Assembly (NCBI GenBank): GCA_020073105.1
Contig: JAIQFW010000003.1
Location: 1 to 61,465, forward strand
DNA: 61,465 bases
Direction: 5' to 3'
Source: Terriglobia bacterium
Lineage (GTDB): Bacteria > Acidobacteriota > Terriglobia > Terriglobales > Acidobacteriaceae
Below the pieces are notes generated by a model, which did no database searches, was not told where the DNA came from, and saw only the letters and a program-made list of their open reading frames with translations. The position numbers and the translations under genes are program-made. Within the stretch, counting starts at the first letter, position 1. Each line of letters begins with the position of its first letter. Below are positions 39,632-48,300 of the stretch, piece by piece.

Positions 39632-41200
39632 TCAATCACCGGCTTCCGCCGAAAACACTTTGACGAGTTCCGGTACTTCGGCTCTCTGCGCCAGCGCCGC
39701 CATAACTTGGGCACCGACCTCATCCTGCTGGAGCGGACTGCCATACTGTTGAAGGAATTTGACGTTGCTGTACAGCGGTAGGTGGTAATCCATAATCAGT
39801 CCGTTCTCGAACGCCACCTTCAACTCCTTGATTCCATCCTCCAGCGTTTTCGAGCAGAAAAAGCCGAGCTCCGTCTTTATCTTTCGGAATGAAACGCGGT
39901 AGTTGCGACGATCGGAGTTGTGGACGTGTTCAATACGGGTATCGGGAAATACGTCGTTAATCCTGCGCGCCAGGTCCCCCAGGGTATAGTTCAGTCCGTC
40001 GTCGCCAACGTTGTAGGTCTGGCCTCCGACCACTTCAACCGGTGCCTCAAGCACTCGAATGATGGATTCGGCCGCGTCTCCAACGTGGAGAAAGGGTCGC
40101 CACTGCTCACCGTTAAAAATCGTTACCACGCCATCTTTCATGGCCTTTGCCGTGAGTAGATTCACCACTAGATCAAAACGCGGCCGGGGTGATAGGCCGA
40201 AAATCGTGGAGAAACGCAGGATCGTGGGATGGAAACCATCTCCCATCGCCGTCAACAGCTCCTTCTCGGAATCGACCTTGGTCTTTGCGTAGAGTGAAAC
40301 CGGGCTAACCTCGGAATCCTCCGTCATCAGTTCATCGGAGGCCCCGTACACACTGCAGCTGGAGGCGAATACAAACCGTCTTACGCCCTCACCCTTTGCT
40401 ATTTCGATCATCATACGGGTTGCGGCGTAGTTGATCTCGCGCGCAGTCTTGTGGTCACGGTCGCAGGCCGGGTCGCCGACAATTGCCGCCAAATGAACGA
40501 TCGCACGTACTCCTGTCATCGCACGGACGACATCTTGAATGTTGCGGCAGTCGCCCCGCAGAAACTTGAAACGGGGATGGCGCACGATCTCTTCGATCGG
40601 CGAGGCACCGTAAACCAGACTGTCAAGCACCCGCACGCGGTATCCGCGATCGAGCAGCTTACGGGTCACAATCGAGCCAATGTAGCCAGCACCACCTACC
40701 ACCAGAATCGTCTCTGGAACGGGTGGCTCTGTCGGATATCGATGTGCACGTTCGCTCTCAAAAGCCCAGTACTTCAACCAGCGCACACCTGGCGTTGCAA
40801 TCACCACCAGAATGGCAAATGCCGCGGCAGTAGAATACGGCGGAAGAGCGTCGGAAGGGTAAAGAACCGCGCTGATGATCACCAAGCCAAGCACACTGAC
40901 AACTGCTGTCACAGCGGCCCGACGGAGCTTAAGAAACATGGCTGTACCACGCCACGTCCGTGTGTACAGCCCGCTGATCGCACAGGCACATGGAAACAAG
41001 GTGGAAAGCGGCAGGAACACGTTCACATAGTAGCTGCGTAGCGACGTAAGATAAGTCGAGACAGACTGAGTGGGCACGGCCTTCAATTTGAGCGCTTCGA
41101 ACAACAACGCGAAGAGCATTGCGACGTGCACCGTGACCAAATCCGCGAGGACGCGCACAGCCACATCGAACAAATTGGAAAACCACGTCTTCTTGATCAT
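39632..41200 (-). CDS. Membrane-anchored extended-SDR protein (CapD-like TM half, epimerase half)
   Basis: A 522-residue fusion. Residues 10-36, 60-80, 96-113 and 124-138 are four membrane helices as in the N-terminus of PglF/CapD/FlaA1-type enzymes. From residue 165 comes a GalE-type extended SDR with GGAGYIGS (169-176), SSCSVYG (280-286) and Tyr304-x3-Lys308 (YAKTK). PglF/CapD enzymes use a different catalytic arrangement and lack the Tyr. The gene sits in the position of pglF after genes like pglA, C, D and E. The C-terminus (LYSNVKFLQQYG) resembles that of the SDR at 47281-48300. It probably works on a UDP-sugar at the membrane. Start chosen at MIKKTWF (41200) as the frame upstream to 41284 has no support. 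Confidence 0.85.
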   Translation of the reverse strand: MIKKTWFSNLFDVAVRVLADLVTVHVAMLFALLFEALKLKAVPTQSVSTYLTSLRSYYVNVFLPLSTLFPCACAISGLYTRTWRGTAMFLKLRRAAVTAVVSVLGLVIISAVLYPSDALPPYSTAAAFAILVVIATPGVRWLKYWAFESERAHRYPTEPPVPETILVVGGAGYIGSIVTRKLLDRGYRVRVLDSLVYGASPIEEIVRHPRFKFLRGDCRNIQDVVRAMTGVRAIVHLAAIVGDPACDRDHKTAREINYAATRMMIEIAKGEGVRRFVFASSCSVYGASDELMTEDSEVSPVSLYAKTKVDSEKELLTAMGDGFHPTILRFSTIFGLSPRPRFDLVVNLLTAKAMKDGVVTIFNGEQWRPFLHVGDAAESIIRVLEAPVEVVGGQTYNVGDDGLNYTLGDLARRINDVFPDTRIEHVHNSDRRNYRVSFRKIKTELGFFCSKTLEDGIKELKVAFENGLIMDYHLPLYSNVKFLQQYGSPLQQDEVGAQVMAALAQRAEVPELVKVFSAEAGD

Positions 41201-41436
41201 AGTCGTTCCGATACAAATTACATCATTTATACCCTGAAAATTACATGTGTCGCCGCCCCTCCAATGACAATACCTGTCCCGCAAACAGTTAGAACCCTAG
41301 CACGCAGGTAAAGTTTCGGGAACATTGGATTGTATCACCAGAATCACAAGTGACAACGACATTAGAGACAACCCGTCTCTCTCAATGCCGCCTGTTCAGC
41401 GCGAACCTTTGCGCTCCTCGGCGCCCGACCGAGGAC

Positions 41437-42708
41437 TCACCCAAGAGCAGTAACGACCGGTGCGCGGCGCAGTGTCCTGCGAGAGATTGCCGTGGCAGCG
41501 TGCATAACCTTGGCAACCGCCCGCCATGTGTCGTGCATGTCACCCACCGAAAGTGTTGGATGAACCAGGAACATCAGGCTGGTCTCGCCGAGTCTCTTTG
41601 CGACCGCCCACCGAGCGGCAGGACGAAGATCGAGTGGAAACGCTTTCTCCATATAGATTTCGCTGCAGCTTCCTGAGAAGCAAGGAATGCCTTCCGCCGT
41701 GATCGCCGAGAGAATGCGGTCCCGGGTCCACCCTTCTCGGAGTTCTTCCGGACGGACGAAAGCGTAGTACTTGTAGTAAGAATGCGCAATGTGGTCGGGC
41801 GGCCGGATCACGCGGAGGGCCGAATGCTGCCGGAATCCTTGCGCCAAGATGGCTGCGTTCCTGCGCCGGATCTCAACCATCCCGGGAAGTTTCCGCAGAA
41901 GCACACGGCCGAGTGCGGATTGAAATTCTGTGAGGCGCCAGTTGGTTCCGAAGGATTCGTGAAGCCATCGAAAACCAGGCAGATGCTTGCGGTTGTAAAC
42001 GGCGTCATAGCTCTTGCCGTGATCCTTGAAGCTCCAGGCCAGATCCCAAATTTCTTTATTGTTGGTCGTAATCATGCCGCCTTCTCCCCCGGTCGTCATG
42101 ATCTTGTCCTGACAGAAGGAGAAAGCAGCGACGTCACTGAGGGAACCGACAGGGCGACCCTTGTAAGTGGCCCCGTGGGCCTGCGCGCAATCTTCGACTA
42201 CGTGCACACGGTGCTCGCGAGCCAGAGCCAGAATTGGGTCCATTTCGCAGGGCAACCCCGCGAGATGGACTGCGATAATGGCCCTGGTGTGAGGCGTGAG
42301 CAGCGGCCGGATGGTGTCGACAGTGAGATTCTGGCTGTGCTCGTCAACATCGGCCAAGACCGGAGTGGCGCCTCGCATAACAACGCAGCTTGCAGACGCA
42401 ATAAAGGTGCGACTGGGGACGATAACTTCGTCGCCCGGGCCGATTCCGAGAGCGTGGAGTGCAAGTTCCAGTGCTACCGTGCCGTTAGCCAAGGCAACGG
42501 CATATTTGCAGCCCGCCTGTGCGGCAAATTCCTTTTCGAACTGCCGCCCTTCATCACCGGTCCAATAGTTGACCTTGCCGGATTGAAGAACCCGCGTAGC
42601 AGCTTCGATTTCATCCGGCTCAAAGTGGGGCCAGGGCGCGAACGGAGCTTTTCGGACCGGTTGACCCCCATCCACCGCAAGATTTTGCCAAGAAGATGTG
42701 TTGTTCAT
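41437..42708 (-). CDS. DegT/DnrJ-family aminotransferase (PglE-like)
   Basis: A 423-residue PLP-dependent sugar aminotransferase. Lys202 in FSFCQDKIMTTGGEGG is the PLP lysine. Other family marks are GDEVIVPSRTFIASASCV, VHLAGLPCEMDPIL and VEDCAQAHGATYKG, with an NWRLTEFQSALGRVLL segment. In the context of PglC- and PglD-like neighbours it should aminate the 4-keto sugar of UDP-GlcNAc-derived intermediate. The ATG at 42708 is preferred, as the frame to 42831 would overlap the acetyltransferase gene. Only about 40 nt separate them. Confidence 0.91.
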   Translation of the reverse strand: MNNTSSWQNLAVDGGQPVRKAPFAPWPHFEPDEIEAATRVLQSGKVNYWTGDEGRQFEKEFAAQAGCKYAVALANGTVALELALHALGIGPGDEVIVPSRTFIASASCVVMRGATPVLADVDEHSQNLTVDTIRPLLTPHTRAIIAVHLAGLPCEMDPILALAREHRVHVVEDCAQAHGATYKGRPVGSLSDVAAFSFCQDKIMTTGGEGGMITTNNKEIWDLAWSFKDHGKSYDAVYNRKHLPGFRWLHESFGTNWRLTEFQSALGRVLLRKLPGMVEIRRRNAAILAQGFRQHSALRVIRPPDHIAHSYYKYYAFVRPEELREGWTRDRILSAITAEGIPCFSGSCSEIYMEKAFPLDLRPAARWAVAKRLGETSLMFLVHPTLSVGDMHDTWRAVAKVMHAATAISRRTLRRAPVVTALG

Positions 42709-42748
42709 TGTGAGCTTGTCTAAGAACAAAATCGGAGGCTGCATTGTT

Positions 42749-43390
42749 TCAAGCGCCCCGCTGGATACGTGCAGGAACGCCAAAAGCGACCACACCATCA
42801 GGGACGTCACTGACCACGACGGCTCCTGCACCTACGATGCTGCGTGCACCGATGCTTATACACTGAATGATGACAGCCCCCATTCCGACTAGCGAAAGCG
42901 TCCCCAATCGTGACGCTCCGCCCATCGCGGCGTTCGGAGCAACGTGTGCGAAATCACCAAGTTCTACGTCGTGGTCAATCGACGCCGCGGTATTCACGAT
43001 TGCTCCTCTGCCGATTTTCGCGTTGGGGTTAATGGCTGCCTGAGCCATCACCACCGAACCAGGACCCAGCTGGGCTGACGCGGAAACCGACGCTCCTGGG
43101 TGCACGAGCGTCGCCAATTCTGCGCCCCAGGCAACGCATTTCTCAGCGGCCCTCTGTCGCGCAAGATTATCTCCGATGCCGAGGGCCACCGCGACCCGCG
43201 CTTTCCCTGCTTCCTGCTGCAACCACTGACCATTGCCACAAACCGGCAATCCGAGGATAGTCGCGCCCTGCAATTGGTCGTTGTCATCTATGAAGCCTGC
43301 GAGATGCGGCTCCTTGCGGGCAAGCAAAATGTCCGCGACGACCTTACCGTGTCCACGGGCTCCGTAGACAAATAGCTTCTGGACAGTCAT
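42749..43390 (-). CDS. PglD/NeuD-like sugar O/N-acetyltransferase
   Basis: An acetyltransferase of about 213 residues with an N-terminal Rossmann-like UDP-sugar site (KLFVYGARGHGKVVADILLA, AGFIDDNDQL) and a C-terminal left-handed beta-helix of hexapeptide repeats (IGRGAIVNTAASIDHDVELG, DFAHVAPNAAMGGASRLG, IGARSIVGAGAVVVSDVPDG). It should acetylate the 4-amino group of a UDP-sugar, as PglD does, with the conserved His in ASIDHDVEL as base. The start overlaps the stop of the phosphosugar transferase gene (ATGATGA; ATG 43390 or 43393), so the two are translationally coupled. Confidence 0.9.
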   Translation of the reverse strand: MTVQKLFVYGARGHGKVVADILLARKEPHLAGFIDDNDQLQGATILGLPVCGNGQWLQQEAGKARVAVALGIGDNLARQRAAEKCVAWGAELATLVHPGASVSASAQLGPGSVVMAQAAINPNAKIGRGAIVNTAASIDHDVELGDFAHVAPNAAMGGASRLGTLSLVGMGAVIIQCISIGARSIVGAGAVVVSDVPDGVVAFGVPARIQRGA

Positions 43391-44001
43391 CATCCGGCGT
43401 GGTTGTTGCCCAGGAACTTGGGCATCGTGGCATGACCCCGCTGTGAGATACCCTCCCGAAGGAGCACCTTTCGAATCGTCATCAGAATTATCCTGCAATC
43501 AAGGGCAAGACTCCAATGATCGACGTACCAGACATCCAGCCGGAATCGCTCCTCCCAGCTTAGAGCGTTTCTTCCGTTCACCTGCGCCCAGCCGGTGATG
43601 CCGGGTTTCACATCGTGGCGGCGAGCTTGCTCCGGAGTATAGCGCTCCAAATATTCCATAAGAAGGGGTCGAGGTCCGACCAAGCTCATCTCTCCCTTCC
43701 ACACATTCCAGAGTTGGGGAATCTCGTCCAGGCTGAAACGGCGAAGAAGTCGCCCTAACCTGGTAAGCCTCCTTTCGTCCGCAAGGAGACTTCCTTGTGT
43801 ATCGCACATTGAATTCATAGTTCGAAACTTTAGCAGCACGAAAGGCTTGCTCTGGTAGCCGGGACGAACCTGGCGGAACAACACTGGGCTACCCATGCTG
43901 AGCCGTATAGCGATTGCAAGGCACCCCGATAGCGGCGCGAGCAGAAGAAGAGCTAGCGTTGCCACCAGGAAGTCGAAACACTTTTTGACGAACCGGCTCA
44001 T
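43390..44001 (-). CDS. Undecaprenyl-phosphate phosphosugar transferase (PglC-like)
   Basis: A small monotopic phosphoglycosyl transferase (203 aa) that puts the first sugar phosphate on undecaprenyl phosphate and starts the polymer. A reentrant N-terminal membrane helix (residues 6-32, FDFLVATLALLLLAPLSG) is followed by the family motifs VLFRQVRPGYQSKPFVLLKF, KFRTM, LRRFSLDEIPQLWNVW with the Asp-Glu catalytic dyad, LVGPRPLL and KPGITGWAQVNGRN. The small size and absence of further TM helices place it with PglC, WcaJ's catalytic half and SugT-type enzymes. Its end overlaps the acetyltransferase start and its start overlaps the GT4 stop by four bases. Confidence 0.94.
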   Translation of the reverse strand: MSRFVKKCFDFLVATLALLLLAPLSGCLAIAIRLSMGSPVLFRQVRPGYQSKPFVLLKFRTMNSMCDTQGSLLADERRLTRLGRLLRRFSLDEIPQLWNVWKGEMSLVGPRPLLMEYLERYTPEQARRHDVKPGITGWAQVNGRNALSWEERFRLDVWYVDHWSLALDCRIILMTIRKVLLREGISQRGHATMPKFLGNNHAG

Positions 44002-45263
44002 GGCGAGGCAAGGTTCACGGGAGAATTGAGTGGTGGCACAGCCTTGCTATCCGCTGCCCTTGGAACCGGCAGCCCCTTTTCTTGCAGCAGAGAAAGCAAT
44101 TCCCTCTCGAGTGCCTTCCAGATGAGATCCTGGCGAAACTCGTGCCGCACGCGTTCAAGCCCAGCGCTACCCAGTCGCCGCGCCATCTCTGGGTGATCAA
44201 TCAATCCAGAGAGAGCGGAGATCAGAGAGTCGACGTCTCCCACCGGCACAAGTATTCCCGTAATACCGTCCTGGATCGCATCTACGGCACCCGTCGCACG
44301 GGTTGTGACGACGGGCTTCGCAGCTGCCTGGGCTTCCAACGCGGTGTTTGGAAATCCTTCCCGATACGTAGGCAAAGCCATGACATTCATTACATGGTAA
44401 TAGAGGGCGGGATCTCGCACGCTTCCGGTGCGGATGATTTGAGAGTCATCCTGGATCGTTTTGCGGGTGTGGCTGGGAACCGGATCACCCGCTTCAAAGT
44501 CGCCCACAAGCAACAGACGCACAGCTGGATGCTGATGGCGCAGTTTAAGATAGGTGTCGATCAATTCGCAGATCCCCTTGTCACGGGTAAAGCGTCCGAC
44601 AAATCCGATTACCGGAGCATCCGAAGGAATCCCAAGGTCGTTCCGTAAGATGGTGGCTTGGCGCACTCGCTCGGGAGTGGGCGCGAATCGATCGGTCTCG
44701 ACGCCGTTGCTGCTGCCTGATGCCGGAACCACAAATTTGCGCGGATCTGCAATACCAAGAGCCATGGCTTTCTTGCGCAGACTGTGGCTTACGCAGATCA
44801 CGCGGTGGGCACAGCGGCAGGCAACACGTTCCGCGAGAATCAGGCACCAGCGTTTCCATCCGCTGGCCGTCTCGCAACGAAGTCCGCGCAATGTGTAGAC
44901 CCGGCATGGCACTCTACTCAAAACGGAAGCGATGCCCGCCAGCAAGCCGGCCTTCGGGGTGCTGACATTCGTGATTGTAGGCCGGAGACGCTGCATCAAA
45001 TGTCTGAGCCGCCACAGCGAGACCAGATCGGCGAGTCCGCTGATCTCGCGGACCATCGGCACAGCGTAGACCTGAACACCCTCGCCTTCGGCGGCAGCGT
45101 AGAGCTCTGGACCGGGAGAAGAAACAACCGAGACGTCAAACCCAGCTTCGCGAAGAAACCTAAACTGGCCTCGCATCAACCCGATGCTCAGATGTGATGT
45201 CCCGACCTGCATCAGGCGGATGGGAAATTCGAAATGCGCAGCAACGGCTTTGCTTCCTTGCAT
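43998..45263 (-). CDS. GT4-family glycosyltransferase (PglA-like)
   Basis: A 421-residue GT-B enzyme of family 4. The donor-binding half has IGFVGRFTRDKGICELIDTY, LLLVGDFEAGD and the E-x7-E motif EGFPNTALEAQAAAKPVV. The acceptor half starts IRLMQVGTSHLSIGLMRGQF, typical of PglA-like transferases that add a second sugar to polyprenyl-PP-bacillosamine. It starts two bases after the AsnB stop and overlaps the PglC-like gene by four bases, which places it in the middle of one operon. The exact sugar is unknown. Confidence 0.9.
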   Translation of the reverse strand: MQGSKAVAAHFEFPIRLMQVGTSHLSIGLMRGQFRFLREAGFDVSVVSSPGPELYAAAEGEGVQVYAVPMVREISGLADLVSLWRLRHLMQRLRPTITNVSTPKAGLLAGIASVLSRVPCRVYTLRGLRCETASGWKRWCLILAERVACRCAHRVICVSHSLRKKAMALGIADPRKFVVPASGSSNGVETDRFAPTPERVRQATILRNDLGIPSDAPVIGFVGRFTRDKGICELIDTYLKLRHQHPAVRLLLVGDFEAGDPVPSHTRKTIQDDSQIIRTGSVRDPALYYHVMNVMALPTYREGFPNTALEAQAAAKPVVTTRATGAVDAIQDGITGILVPVGDVDSLISALSGLIDHPEMARRLGSAGLERVRHEFRQDLIWKALERELLSLLQEKGLPVPRAADSKAVPPLNSPVNLASP

Positions 45264-45265
45264 AG

Positions 45266-47242
45266 CTAAACCGCGTGAGAAACCAGGTTAGACATCGGGG
45301 GAACTGGCGTGATTTTGTCGCCGGACGGTTCACGGCGTGTCTCCAGCCAGGCTTGGAACATTAAGGCATCCCAGAGGTGGTACTGCCAAGATCCTTGACC
45401 GGACAGGTGGGCAGCCCAGATCTTTCGAATGGGGCCAGGGTTGAAAAAGCCCTGGCTCTTCAGGCGATGTTCGTCGAGCAGGGCCTCCAAGCCTGCCTTG
45501 GGCCGATCGACCAACTCCCTGGGCACGTAGCTATAGAGAAGCTGGCGAAGAAGCCACTTTCCTCGCCCCTGACGTATCTTCATGACGGGCGGAAGAGACC
45601 AAGCAAATTCAACGACGCGGTGATCGAGGAGAGGGACTCTCATCTCCAAACTGACGGCCATGCTCGCCCGATCCACTTTTGCCAAGATGTCATCCGGGAG
45701 ATAGGTGACCGTGTCGAGGAACATCATTTGCTGAGTGAAATCCAAGAAGTGTACCTGGGGACTCTGCACACCGCCAAGGTAGTCCGCATCAGTGCCACCG
45801 ACCACGACGTCGGCTGGATCCGCCCAATGTGAGGTATGCCTTAGATACAAAGCTCCCCGATTCTTCACAGGGAGCATTTCTGCAATCTTGTACAGTTTTA
45901 ATCCTGGATTTCTGTGTTTGGCTTTGTGCGGGAGGAAGGGAGCGCAAATATCCAAAACCGTGTCCCAGGTCTGCGGTGTAACACAGCGGATCGCACCGGC
46001 TAAAGAAGATCTCGCGGAGAGGGGAAGCCAACCGACGGCATTCCAGATCCGGCTGCTCCATACGTGGCGGTTGTATCCACCGAAGAGTTCATCCCCGCCA
46101 TCTCCCGAGAGCCCCACAGTGACATGCTGACGAGCCATCTGGGATACGAGGAAACTCGGTATCTGAGATGAGTCTGCGAAGGGCTCGTCATACATAGTCG
46201 GCAATCTCGGAATGACGGACAGCACTTCTGCAGGGGTTATATAGAGTTCGGTGTGTTCGGTGCCCAGGTGATGGGCCACCGCCGCAGCATTTTGCGCTTC
46301 ATCATACGCGCTCTCGTGAAGTCCGATAGTAAACGTCTTGACCGGCCTGGTGCTTTGTGCCTGCATCAGTGCGGTGACGGTCGAAGAGTCCACCCCACCG
46401 GAAAGAAGACCTCCCAGAGGAACATCCGCTAGCATTCTCATTCGGATTGCATCCCTGAGAAGAGTATCCAGTTGCTTGACGGCCTCCTCTGCAGTGCCGT
46501 GAAACGGTTCCTCACTACCACGCGCCACTGCCTCCTCAAGGCTCCAATAAGGAACTGGCGTCATGTTCGGGGAATGTCCACGGGGAAGACTGAGCAGGTG
46601 GCCTGGTGGAAGCTTGTAAATTCCACGGTAGATCGAATGTGGGGCGGGCACACAGTTGTGCCGCATGTACAGCATCAAGGCGTCGCGATTGATCTCTCCA
46701 CGGAAATCGGGATGAGCGCACAGAGCCTTCAGTTCGGAACCAAAGAGAAATGTTTCGCCCAACCAGCCGTAATAAAGCGGTTTCTCGCCCATGCGATCGC
46801 GGCTGAGATGCAGGATGTGTTCGTGCCGGTCCCAGACTGCGAAAGCGAACATGCCATTGAACCGAGAAAGCGAAGCCTCGACGCCCCAGCGATCGAAGCA
46901 AGTCAGTATCACTTCGGTATCGGATTGTCCACGGAAGGTCGTCGGATAGTCGCCGGAATGTTCCAATTCCTGTCGCAATTCTTGAAAATTGTATAGTTCC
47001 CCGTTATAGATAATGACGAATCTACCGCTCCCGGACACCATGGGCTGGTGACCCATCGGAGACAAGTCAATAATGGCAAGGCGGCGATGCCCTAGGGCGA
47101 TGCCCGCTGCCGCATCGACCCATACACCTTCGCTGTCTGGGCCACGGTGCCTGACAGTGTCGGCCATCCTCTTCGCGATGGCCCGAAGATCTTCGGTGGA
47201 AGTCTGGCGCCGGAGATCAATAAAACCTGCGATTCCGCACAT
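45266..47242 (-). CDS. asnB: Asparagine synthetase (glutamine-hydrolysing) type amidotransferase
   Basis: A 658-residue AsnB-type protein. Cys2 (MCGIAGF) is the glutaminase nucleophile of the N-terminal domain; the C-terminal domain has the ATP pyrophosphatase PP-loop LSGGVDSSTV (about residue 278). Both domains are intact and include GLSGDGGDELFGGY and MRVPLLDHRVVEFAW. AsnB paralogues are frequent in polysaccharide/exosortase loci, where they probably amidate a sugar acid, such as the uronic acid from a UDP-sugar dehydrogenase like the one at 32709. It could also make plain asparagine. It is coupled to the downstream GT4 by a 2-base gap. Confidence 0.93.
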   Translation of the reverse strand: MCGIAGFIDLRRQTSTEDLRAIAKRMADTVRHRGPDSEGVWVDAAAGIALGHRRLAIIDLSPMGHQPMVSGSGRFVIIYNGELYNFQELRQELEHSGDYPTTFRGQSDTEVILTCFDRWGVEASLSRFNGMFAFAVWDRHEHILHLSRDRMGEKPLYYGWLGETFLFGSELKALCAHPDFRGEINRDALMLYMRHNCVPAPHSIYRGIYKLPPGHLLSLPRGHSPNMTPVPYWSLEEAVARGSEEPFHGTAEEAVKQLDTLLRDAIRMRMLADVPLGGLLSGGVDSSTVTALMQAQSTRPVKTFTIGLHESAYDEAQNAAAVAHHLGTEHTELYITPAEVLSVIPRLPTMYDEPFADSSQIPSFLVSQMARQHVTVGLSGDGGDELFGGYNRHVWSSRIWNAVGWLPLSARSSLAGAIRCVTPQTWDTVLDICAPFLPHKAKHRNPGLKLYKIAEMLPVKNRGALYLRHTSHWADPADVVVGGTDADYLGGVQSPQVHFLDFTQQMMFLDTVTYLPDDILAKVDRASMAVSLEMRVPLLDHRVVEFAWSLPPVMKIRQGRGKWLLRQLLYSYVPRELVDRPKAGLEALLDEHRLKSQGFFNPGPIRKIWAAHLSGQGSWQYHLWDALMFQAWLETRREPSGDKITPVPPMSNLVSHAV

Positions 47243-47280: not shown

Positions 47281-48300
47281 TCACCGAGAGAACTTTCTTG
47301 GCCTTCCGGAATCTGGCTTAGTTGCTGTGCACTGTATGCCGAGGTTCTTGAAGGACTGAATGTTCGAATAGAGCGGGTTCTCCCAGTCTTGGAACTTATC
47401 CATGTTATCGATTAGGCTTCCAACAATCGACTTCACGTCGCCCGTGGGGTGGAAACTCAAGACATTACTTGCTTTGAGTGTGCTGACCTTATAGTTGCGG
47501 AAATCCTGAATGTGTTTGATCTGGAGGTTCACTCGAATTCCCAGCCGCTCTTCTACAGCAAGTCTTACCAAGTCTGCTATTTCCCCGACGGTATAGTTTC
47601 CCGATGCCACATTGAAAATTCCCGATAGTTTATAGTTCGCCTCAATGGCTCGAATGTAAGCCGTGGCCGCATCTTCGATGCTCAGGACTGGTCTCCAAAT
47701 GGAAGGGTTGTTGACTGTGATCATATGCTGTTTGACCACGCTCTTAAACATAGTGTTAATGACCAGGTCAAAACGCATACGCGGGCTGTAGCCGCAGACC
47801 GTGCCCTTGCGGAGCGCTATGACCGAGAAGCCTTTATCGGCGAGCCGCGCTGCAGCCTGTTCTCCCTGAAGCTTGGAAATTCCATATGCATAGTGTGAAC
47901 TGACCGGACGGGTTTCATCGTATAGTTCGTTCTCCGTATAGCCGTAAACGGAGCACGACGACGCATAAATGTATCTTTTAACCTTGGCTTTCTTGGCCGT
48001 GTAAGCCAGGTAAGCCGGAGCAGCTGCGTTGAAGATGAAATTTTTGCTTGGTGAGAACTCCGCCATGGGGTCATTCGAAAGTCCGGCAAGAAAAATCACC
48101 TGATCATAAGGCTCCAGATCTTCTACGGAGAGATGAAAGATATCCTTATTAAGGATGCCGACTTGCGGTGGCAAGTGGTTGCCGAACCAAAAGAGATCGA
48201 CCACATCCACCTTGTAGCCGCGATCGAGCAGTTTCGGAATGAGGACGCTGCCCACATAGCCAGCACCTCCCGCAACAAGGAGTCTCATTGTTTTTCCCAT
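47281..48300 (-). CDS. Extended-SDR sugar epimerase/dehydratase
   Basis: A 339-residue NAD-dependent SDR: GGAGYVGS (residues 11-18), SSCSVYGYTE (114-123) and Tyr139/Lys143 in YAYGISK. The same SSCSVYG and the C-terminal SDFRNYKVS and LYSN segments appear in the membrane-anchored SDR at 39632, so the two are paralogues. Both lack the STDEVYG of dehydratases. It probably epimerises or reduces a UDP- or GDP-sugar. It lies upstream of AsnB with a 38-nt gap. Two starts (MGK, MRL) lie 12 bases apart, neither with a good ribosome site. Confidence 0.88.
   Translation of the reverse strand: MGKTMRLLVAGGAGYVGSVLIPKLLDRGYKVDVVDLFWFGNHLPPQVGILNKDIFHLSVEDLEPYDQVIFLAGLSNDPMAEFSPSKNFIFNAAAPAYLAYTAKKAKVKRYIYASSCSVYGYTENELYDETRPVSSHYAYGISKLQGEQAAARLADKGFSVIALRKGTVCGYSPRMRFDLVINTMFKSVVKQHMITVNNPSIWRPVLSIEDAATAYIRAIEANYKLSGIFNVASGNYTVGEIADLVRLAVEERLGIRVNLQIKHIQDFRNYKVSTLKASNVLSFHPTGDVKSIVGSLIDNMDKFQDWENPLYSNIQSFKNLGIQCTATKPDSGRPRKFSR

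Follow-up and report, generated by a model that had tools for sequence, protein, structure and literature searches.

A CapD-type membrane bundle joined to a Cj1427-like short-chain dehydrogenase/reductase domain in the place of PglF

INTRODUCTION

The pgl block of Campylobacter has the gene order A-C-D-E-F. We have analyzed a 61,465-nucleotide stretch from a Terriglobia bacterium of the Acidobacteriota (contig JAIQFW010000003.1; hereafter the window), the minus strand of which carries a block of genes of matching types in the same order, yet with no PglF in the F slot. That slot is filled by a gene that we call FUS, whose product joins a membrane domain to a short-chain dehydrogenase/reductase (SDR) domain.

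PglF, WbpM, and CapD, the UDP-GlcNAc 4,6-dehydratases, resemble FUS in their membrane bundle, in the PglC-PglD-PglE block, and in having the same aminotransferase subfamily as partner; FUS differs from them in having no CoA_binding_3 domain, Tyr rather than Met in its catalytic dyad, and no TDK acid/base residues, and in belonging to another SDR branch. Its closest described relative in the catalytic domain is Cj1427 (PDB 6vo6 and 6vo8), the Campylobacter nucleoside diphosphate (NDP)-heptose C4-dehydrogenase, which oxidizes C4 and whose bound NADH is re-oxidized by alpha-ketoglutarate, yielding L-2-hydroxyglutarate (PMC10680097; papers given by PMC number are cited from excerpts). Cj1427 shares with FUS the SDR fold, a Tyr-Lys dyad, and two sequence stretches described below. 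Unlike FUS, it has 321 residues and no membrane domain, and it feeds epimerases and reductases, whereas FUS has an aminotransferase partner. The same coupled C4 oxidation would be expected of FUS, where gene linkage in part of the family points to it. A mirror-image precedent exists in Pseudomonas aeruginosa, where 3-oxidation of UDP-GlcNAcA by WbpB makes D-2-hydroxyglutarate, recycled by D-2-hydroxyglutarate dehydrogenase (PMC8651671). There too a sugar oxidation is coupled to 2-ketoglutarate and the hydroxy acid is returned by a second enzyme; unlike the proposed FUS, WbpB acts at C3 and makes the D isomer. The fold of WbpB also differs from that of the FUS SDR domain. In the ArnA/ArnB pair, C4 oxidation is followed by transamination by a DegT-family enzyme, as we propose for FUS; ArnA, unlike FUS, also decarboxylates and is soluble.

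We propose, at a probability of roughly 0.6, that FUS is a membrane-tethered, alpha-ketoglutarate-coupled nucleotide-sugar C4 dehydrogenase of the Cj1427-like kind, standing in the place of PglF.

RESULTS AND DISCUSSION

Architecture of FUS

The N-terminus of FUS has four hydrophobic segments, and an AlphaFold 2 model built from 67 sequences (mean predicted local distance difference test score, pLDDT, 89.3) shows helices at residues 4-153 and, beyond a linker of low confidence, an SDR fold that starts at residue 164. When the bundle profile (67 rows) was compared by hhalign with 20 CapD N-termini from Acidobacteriota, it matched at probability 97.4 (E 1.6e-11, 136 columns), as against 0.1 for the reversed CapD profile and 0.2 for four other neighboring gene clusters; because the match is strong and the decoys are near zero, the likeness of this half to CapD is one of homology. 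The 67-row fusion alignment comprises the window protein and 66 of the 80 FUS loci taken from named records; it leaves out L059, L067, L075, L103, L111, L112, and L126, as well as L085 and L113 (extra CoA domain), L095 (extra response regulator), L101, L120, L121, and L122. Bundle residues D20, Y79, and R140 are invariant in 67/67 rows, as are S280, C282, Y304, and K308 of the SDR half, so the fusion is more than a chance event. Hydrophobic segments precede the SDR domain in 79 of the 80 loci (four segments in 57, three in 18, two in 4), the remaining one, L075, being cut. Two ways of explaining the architecture away were rejected: a GalE-like epimerase with a chance hydrophobic N-terminus, because the bundle is conserved in all 67 rows and homologous to CapD, and a chimera or assembly error, because many loci under several phylum labels have the fusion. 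Folded alone (pLDDT 89.8), the bundle has no PDB match at E<=0.001, which is uninformative either way; CapD/PglF entries do not appear among the best 50 rows of either fold list, an absence that is not evidence.

No match to CoA_binding_3 (PF13727) was found in the window protein at E<=0.01, and a linker of residues 154-163 joins the bundle to the SDR domain. At the same threshold PF13727 matches 8 rows of a 77-row fusion alignment, which comprises 73 of the 80 loci (all but the first seven named above), L019-L021, and the window. Among the eight are L085 and L113, titled Poribacteria (taxon labels are throughout those of the record titles), which combine the bundle, CoA_binding_3, and a Cj1427-type SDR domain, and in the flanks of which no aminotransferase was found. 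These two are a possible intermediate between CapD and FUS; theirs is the arrangement one would expect if CapD had first acquired a different catalytic head and only afterwards lost its middle domain, a putative order of events. The fusion protein at L095:7962-9950, in a record titled Ignavibacteriae, has a C-terminal response-regulator receiver domain (PF00072).

Catalytic domain of FUS

The dehydratases have acid/base motifs of the forms [ST]DE, [ST]DK, and TDK, and PglF/CapD in particular have the catalytic residues TDK...Mx3K (PMC8987622). FUS has SSCS...YAKTK at these positions, and all 67 fusion proteins have [S/T]-C-[S/G] there, with Ser at the base position in 65 and Gly in 2; the dehydratase acid/base pair is thus absent. 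Numbered from the ATG at 41200, Tyr304, Lys308, and SSCSVYG are placed as the original prediction, a reading of the sequence alone, had them. The Pfam Epimerase family scores 150.2 bits against 42.8 bits (cut-off 20.2) for Polysacc_synt_2 (PF02719), the CapD catalytic family, and FUS does not reach the curated GalE model TIGR01179 (102.8 bits, cut-off 262.3).

Among solved structures, Cj1427 comes first for the SDR half by four comparisons: by phmmer (5.6e-49; next entry 7e-34), by profile search (257.1 bits; next 158), by Foldseek (3.7e-25; next 8.5e-21), and by VIA fold comparison (Z 37.6, rmsd 1.9 over 301 residues; next other entry Z 35.1). By sequence and Foldseek, the next solved relative is 6wjb, a UDP-GlcNAc C4-epimerase. 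The stretch RxRxDLxVN is common to FUS and Cj1427 and absent from the aligned rows of GalE, UDP-GlcNAc epimerase, another SDR of the same genome, and CapD. DxRxYxV is likewise common to both, but it is only partly diagnostic, as an RmlB-like row has its Arg432 and Tyr434 alone and the 8rdg and CapD rows have no comparable residues there.

In trees of the SDR half, built with 29 of the 67 fusion rows (the second tree without SOLO_L037 and three long rows), the fusion rows form one group (support 92/90 and 88/88), near Cj1427 and near a group with another N-terminal fusion, and away from CapD, four rows of which form a separate group (100/100). The group containing both FUS and Cj1427 has support of 87/60 in the first tree and 100/99 in the second, with Cj1427 on a long branch whose exact place is unsure. 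A CapD with a diverged catalytic half was rejected by motif and tree alike.

FUS is therefore not PglF/CapD, as the defining features tested are absent from it, and sequence and modeled fold, rather than chemistry, support its place among the Cj1427-type enzymes. The original prediction saw a CapD-like membrane half fused to an SDR of another type than that of CapD, in a locus where PglF is replaced, and the bundle homology, the catalytic motif, and the SDR tree bear this out: structure prediction and domain scan find no CoA-binding plus CapD catalytic domain in FUS, and the phylogeny, although of the SDR half and not of the full-length protein, keeps it apart from CapD. The label "epimerase-type" was too vague for an SDR that falls within the Cj1427-like group sharing RxRxDLxVN.

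Other members of this SDR group were seen as well. A second, membrane-free one lies in the window cluster itself (47281-48300, minus strand; 34% identical to FUS) and carries RMRFDLVIN and DFRNYKVS. Acidobacteriota loci L023-L032 encode SDRs of the group with an N-terminal part resembling, by eye only, paired CBS domains, and the seven of these rows included in the tree fall into a single clade. Elsewhere in the window genome (L137:2212-3804, contig C289), a Cj1427-like SDR gene stands directly beside a gene for a dTDP_sugar_isom (RmlC-type) epimerase, an arrangement that recalls Cj1427 and its C3/C5 epimerase.

Distribution and aminotransferase partner

Relatives of FUS occur in at least seven phyla, with loci labeled Acidobacteriota, Armatimonadota, Chloroflexota, Planctomycetota, Meiothermus, and others; the closest in named records are titled Bryobacterales or Acidobacteria. 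FUS is a widespread family and not a local hybrid. A DegT aminotransferase gene lies within 400 bases of FUS in 62, and within 1,500 bases in 65, of the 77 loci (out of the 80) that have at least 600 bases upstream. As a control, 29 close SDR relatives without an upstream hydrophobic segment have an aminotransferase in their 1.5 kb flanks in only 3 cases (Fisher test, 3.2e-11), and all three fusions from our Acidobacteriota genome sample (L019-L021) have one. All 64 aminotransferases scanned (an alignment of 63 of 76 clustered open reading frames plus that of the window) match the ArnB, PseC, and LegC models, which describe 4-ketosugar aminotransferases, at 1e-50 or better; none of the nine scanned singly reaches the cut-off of these models. 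The context favors C4 dehydrogenation feeding the aminotransferase over epimerization.

CapD in FUS loci and genomes

CapD was found in none of the flanks of the 80 loci (up to 8 kb a side, often shorter). We also scanned 24 FUS genomes, chosen from those behind the 80 loci and including all eight with a linked oxidase (see below). No PF02719 match above 81 bits was found in 19 of them, in a scan that RmlB-like UDP-GlcNAc dehydratases would escape; the 19 include Herpetosiphon aurantiacus (titled complete), Bryobacterales F-183 (titled nearly complete), and three Meiothermus. The other five have matches of 247-394 bits.

The original prediction had allowed for a dehydratase elsewhere, and the window genome does encode a true CapD (658 residues, 370.6 bits) on contig C242, in a locus that also has genes for PglC and for a paralogue of the window PglE (64.7% identity). 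Among 297 Acidobacteriota genomes, 11 encode a total of 12 PglE-type genes at 1e-110 or better: seven of the genes (that on C242 included) have a full CapD within ~2.5 kb, one is beside a shorter CapD-like gene, three have neither partner, and the window gene has FUS. Members of this aminotransferase subfamily also adjoin FUS in other records, and no locus was seen with both CapD and FUS; the subfamily thus appears, from its gene neighborhoods, to work with either. In the aminotransferase tree, the FUS and CapD partner labels need two changes (a tally of three partly counts rows with neither partner); since a single clade of CapD-paired rows is not rejected (approximately unbiased test, p-AU 0.061), we dropped a claim of repeated partner change.

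Linkage to L-2-hydroxyglutarate oxidase

In 8 of the 80 loci the next gene after FUS, which either overlaps it or is separated from it by a few bases, encodes a homologue of L-2-hydroxyglutarate oxidase, with matches of 534.6-556.9 bits (cut-off 299) in these eight genomes. To avoid hand-picking, we took a sample of 151 Armatimonadota genomes (the phylum of G309 and L079). The oxidase is present in 21 of these and FUS with its membrane domain in 12 (truncated at a contig end in one case); 10 have both, and the two genes are adjacent in 10/10 (Fisher p 1.6e-8, not corrected for kinship). Four of the ten were already among the 80 loci. The six new ones, fetched with wider flanks, comprise four (L218-L221) with an unbroken PglC-PglD-PglE-FUS-oxidase run, one with PglE-FUS-oxidase, and one that is cut. 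The unbroken run corresponds to the window block with the predicted recycling enzyme added. Among the 24 chosen FUS genomes, 13 encode the oxidase, 8 of these being known beforehand from their loci.

Proposed reaction and alternative explanations

We propose that FUS keeps the CapD/PglF membrane bundle, without CoA_binding_3, and that a ping-pong catalytic domain like that of Cj1427 takes the place of the dehydratase head. FUS would oxidize an NDP-sugar at C4 with no loss of water, yielding a 4-ketosugar; at the window locus the most plausible substrate would be UDP-GlcNAc or one of its epimers. The NADH formed would stay bound to FUS and be re-oxidized by alpha-ketoglutarate, which would become L-2-hydroxyglutarate. 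The PglE-type aminotransferase encoded next to FUS would then convert the 4-ketosugar and glutamate to a 4-amino sugar, regenerating alpha-ketoglutarate; PglD would acetylate the amino sugar, PglC would load it onto undecaprenyl phosphate, and the family 4 glycosyltransferase (GT4) would extend it. Where encoded, the oxidase would return L-2-hydroxyglutarate to alpha-ketoglutarate.

Several observations weigh against this proposal. No oxidase gene is linked to FUS at the window locus; the single oxidase of the window genome (563 bits) is encoded on another contig (C213). Two further Armatimonadota genomes have PglE-FUS without the oxidase. Among the 16 FUS genomes with no oxidase at the locus, 5 have the gene elsewhere and 11 have none, and it was found in none of the three Meiothermus and three Herpetosiphon FUS genomes; many members must therefore remove the hydroxy acid by other means or rely on a different acceptor. 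Half of the eight oxidase-linked loci (L079, L081, L087, and L098) have gmhA/gmhB-like genes, below equivalog cut-offs, a scan of the other 76 loci giving no match, and some FUS members may act on NDP-heptose. An aminotransferase was not found in the flanks of L079, L080, L081, and L098, again four of the eight; with the gmhA/gmhB genes, this means that substrate and partner differ within the family. Cj1427 has Asn at the position of Cys282, its own position in the trees has support of 95/81 in one and 80/44 in the other, on a long branch, and the CapD of the window genome could supply a keto sugar in trans.

In the main rival, which we consider unlikely, FUS would be a membrane-anchored C4 epimerase of the GalE or UDP-GlcNAc epimerase type, with the PglE keto sugar coming from the CapD on C242. 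The catalytic Ser/Thr, Tyr304, and Lys308 without an acid/base pair are also the GalE signature (PMC8987622), equally expected of a C4 dehydrogenase and so not decisive; a UDP-GlcNAc C4-epimerase is the next solved relative, the genome has the CapD required, and FUS has no oxidase gene beside it in the window. Yet an epimerase has no need for L-2-hydroxyglutarate oxidase, the gene for which is a fixed neighbor in part of the FUS family, CapD-class matches are absent from most of the FUS genomes scanned, and RxRxDLxVN is shared with Cj1427 and not with the two aligned epimerase structures.

There is a still smaller chance that FUS is a membrane oxidase or epimerase acting on a sugar that PglC has already attached to its lipid carrier, such as undecaprenyl-PP-GlcNAc. 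Lipid-linked epimerases are known, FUS has a membrane domain, and a PglC gene accompanies FUS in its block in the window, as it does in many FUS loci; the aminotransferase partners, however, match models of nucleotide-sugar enzymes. Anchoring does not itself imply a lipid substrate, because the C-terminal half of WbpM is active on its own, the N-terminal region serving as a membrane anchor (PMC8987622). Least probable, and very much so, is a 4,6- or 5,6-dehydratase with Cys282 as an unusual acid. The 5,6-dehydratase TunA does use Cys as acid, in TCE (PMC8987622), Cys282 is invariant, and PF02719 scores above its cut-off, albeit far below Epimerase; against this, the base position is never Glu or Lys in the 67 proteins, and Cys282 is not diagnostic, since another SDR of the window genome (L016) has SSTCSVYG.

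We regard the predicted variant of a bacillosamine-type pathway as supported. More tentatively, and with rather less confidence than in the C4 dehydrogenase itself, we suggest that several phyla may have a dehydration-free form of that pathway, in which a CapD-anchored, alpha-ketoglutarate-coupled C4 dehydrogenase replaces PglF, the product of PglE and PglD is a UDP-2,4-diacetamido-2,4-dideoxyhexose that retains its 6-hydroxyl, and bacterial L-2-hydroxyglutarate has a biosynthetic role in glycan assembly. The cofactor loop would be closed by glutamate transamination and, where present, L-2-hydroxyglutarate oxidase.

The window locus

Features are listed in Table 1. The predicted pglA-C-D-E-F order holds for the gene types, with PglD passing its model, while the names at two positions are too specific: the GT4 reaches no equivalog among the NCBIfam families shown and is not specifically PglA, and "PglE" is generic, the top NCBIfam model of the aminotransferase being PseC at 221.8 bits (cut-off 423.5). 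Farther up the minus strand are genes for a family 2 glycosyltransferase (GT2), a flippase, a GNVR-domain protein, and an SLBB/Poly_export protein, which mark the locus as one of exopolysaccharide type.

Table 1. Features of FUS and its neighboring genes in the window
Feature	Coordinates	Strand	Basis or remark
Fusion gene FUS, 522 aa, ATG at 41200	39632..41200	-	CapD-type membrane bundle + Cj1427-type SDR
Membrane bundle, residues 4-153	40742..41191	-	Homologous to CapD/PglF N-terminal bundle (hhalign)
Extended SDR domain, residues 164-475	39776..40711	-	Nearest solved relative Cj1427
SSCSVYG, residues 280-286	40343..40363	-	Cys and Ser at positions of dehydratase acid and base
Tyr304-x3-Lys308 catalytic dyad	40277..40291	-	Alignment
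DegT/PglE-type aminotransferase, FUS partner	41437..42831 (open reading frame; start likely near 42711)	-	Profile scans
PglD/NeuD-type sugar N-acyltransferase	42749..43393 (open reading frame to 43498)	-	TIGR03570 215.1 bits, cut-off 160.8
PglC-type short phosphoglycosyl transferase (Bac_transf)	43390..44001	-	PF02397 219.2 bits
GT4 glycosyltransferase	43998..45263	-	Family scans
Asparagine-synthase-like amidotransferase, just upstream of GT4 gene	45266..47242	-	PF00733 351 bits

Implications

Our literature search found no paper on a CapD-anchored Cj1427-type protein and none placing L-2-hydroxyglutarate oxidase in a glycan operon, with subscription papers sparsely covered and novelty thus unproven; a paper on lhgO neighborhoods (PMC8206213) uses neither the word polysaccharide nor the word sugar. 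From the annotation one would take FUS for an epimerase/dehydratase and its locus for a bacillosamine cluster, and would expect the product to be a 6-deoxy sugar. Should FUS prove to be a C4 dehydrogenase, the 6-hydroxyl would be retained and this expectation would be wrong for FUS loci across phyla. Bacterial L-2-hydroxyglutarate oxidase would likewise gain a role outside glutarate catabolism, and the CapD membrane anchor would be a transferable module, fitted here with a different catalytic head.

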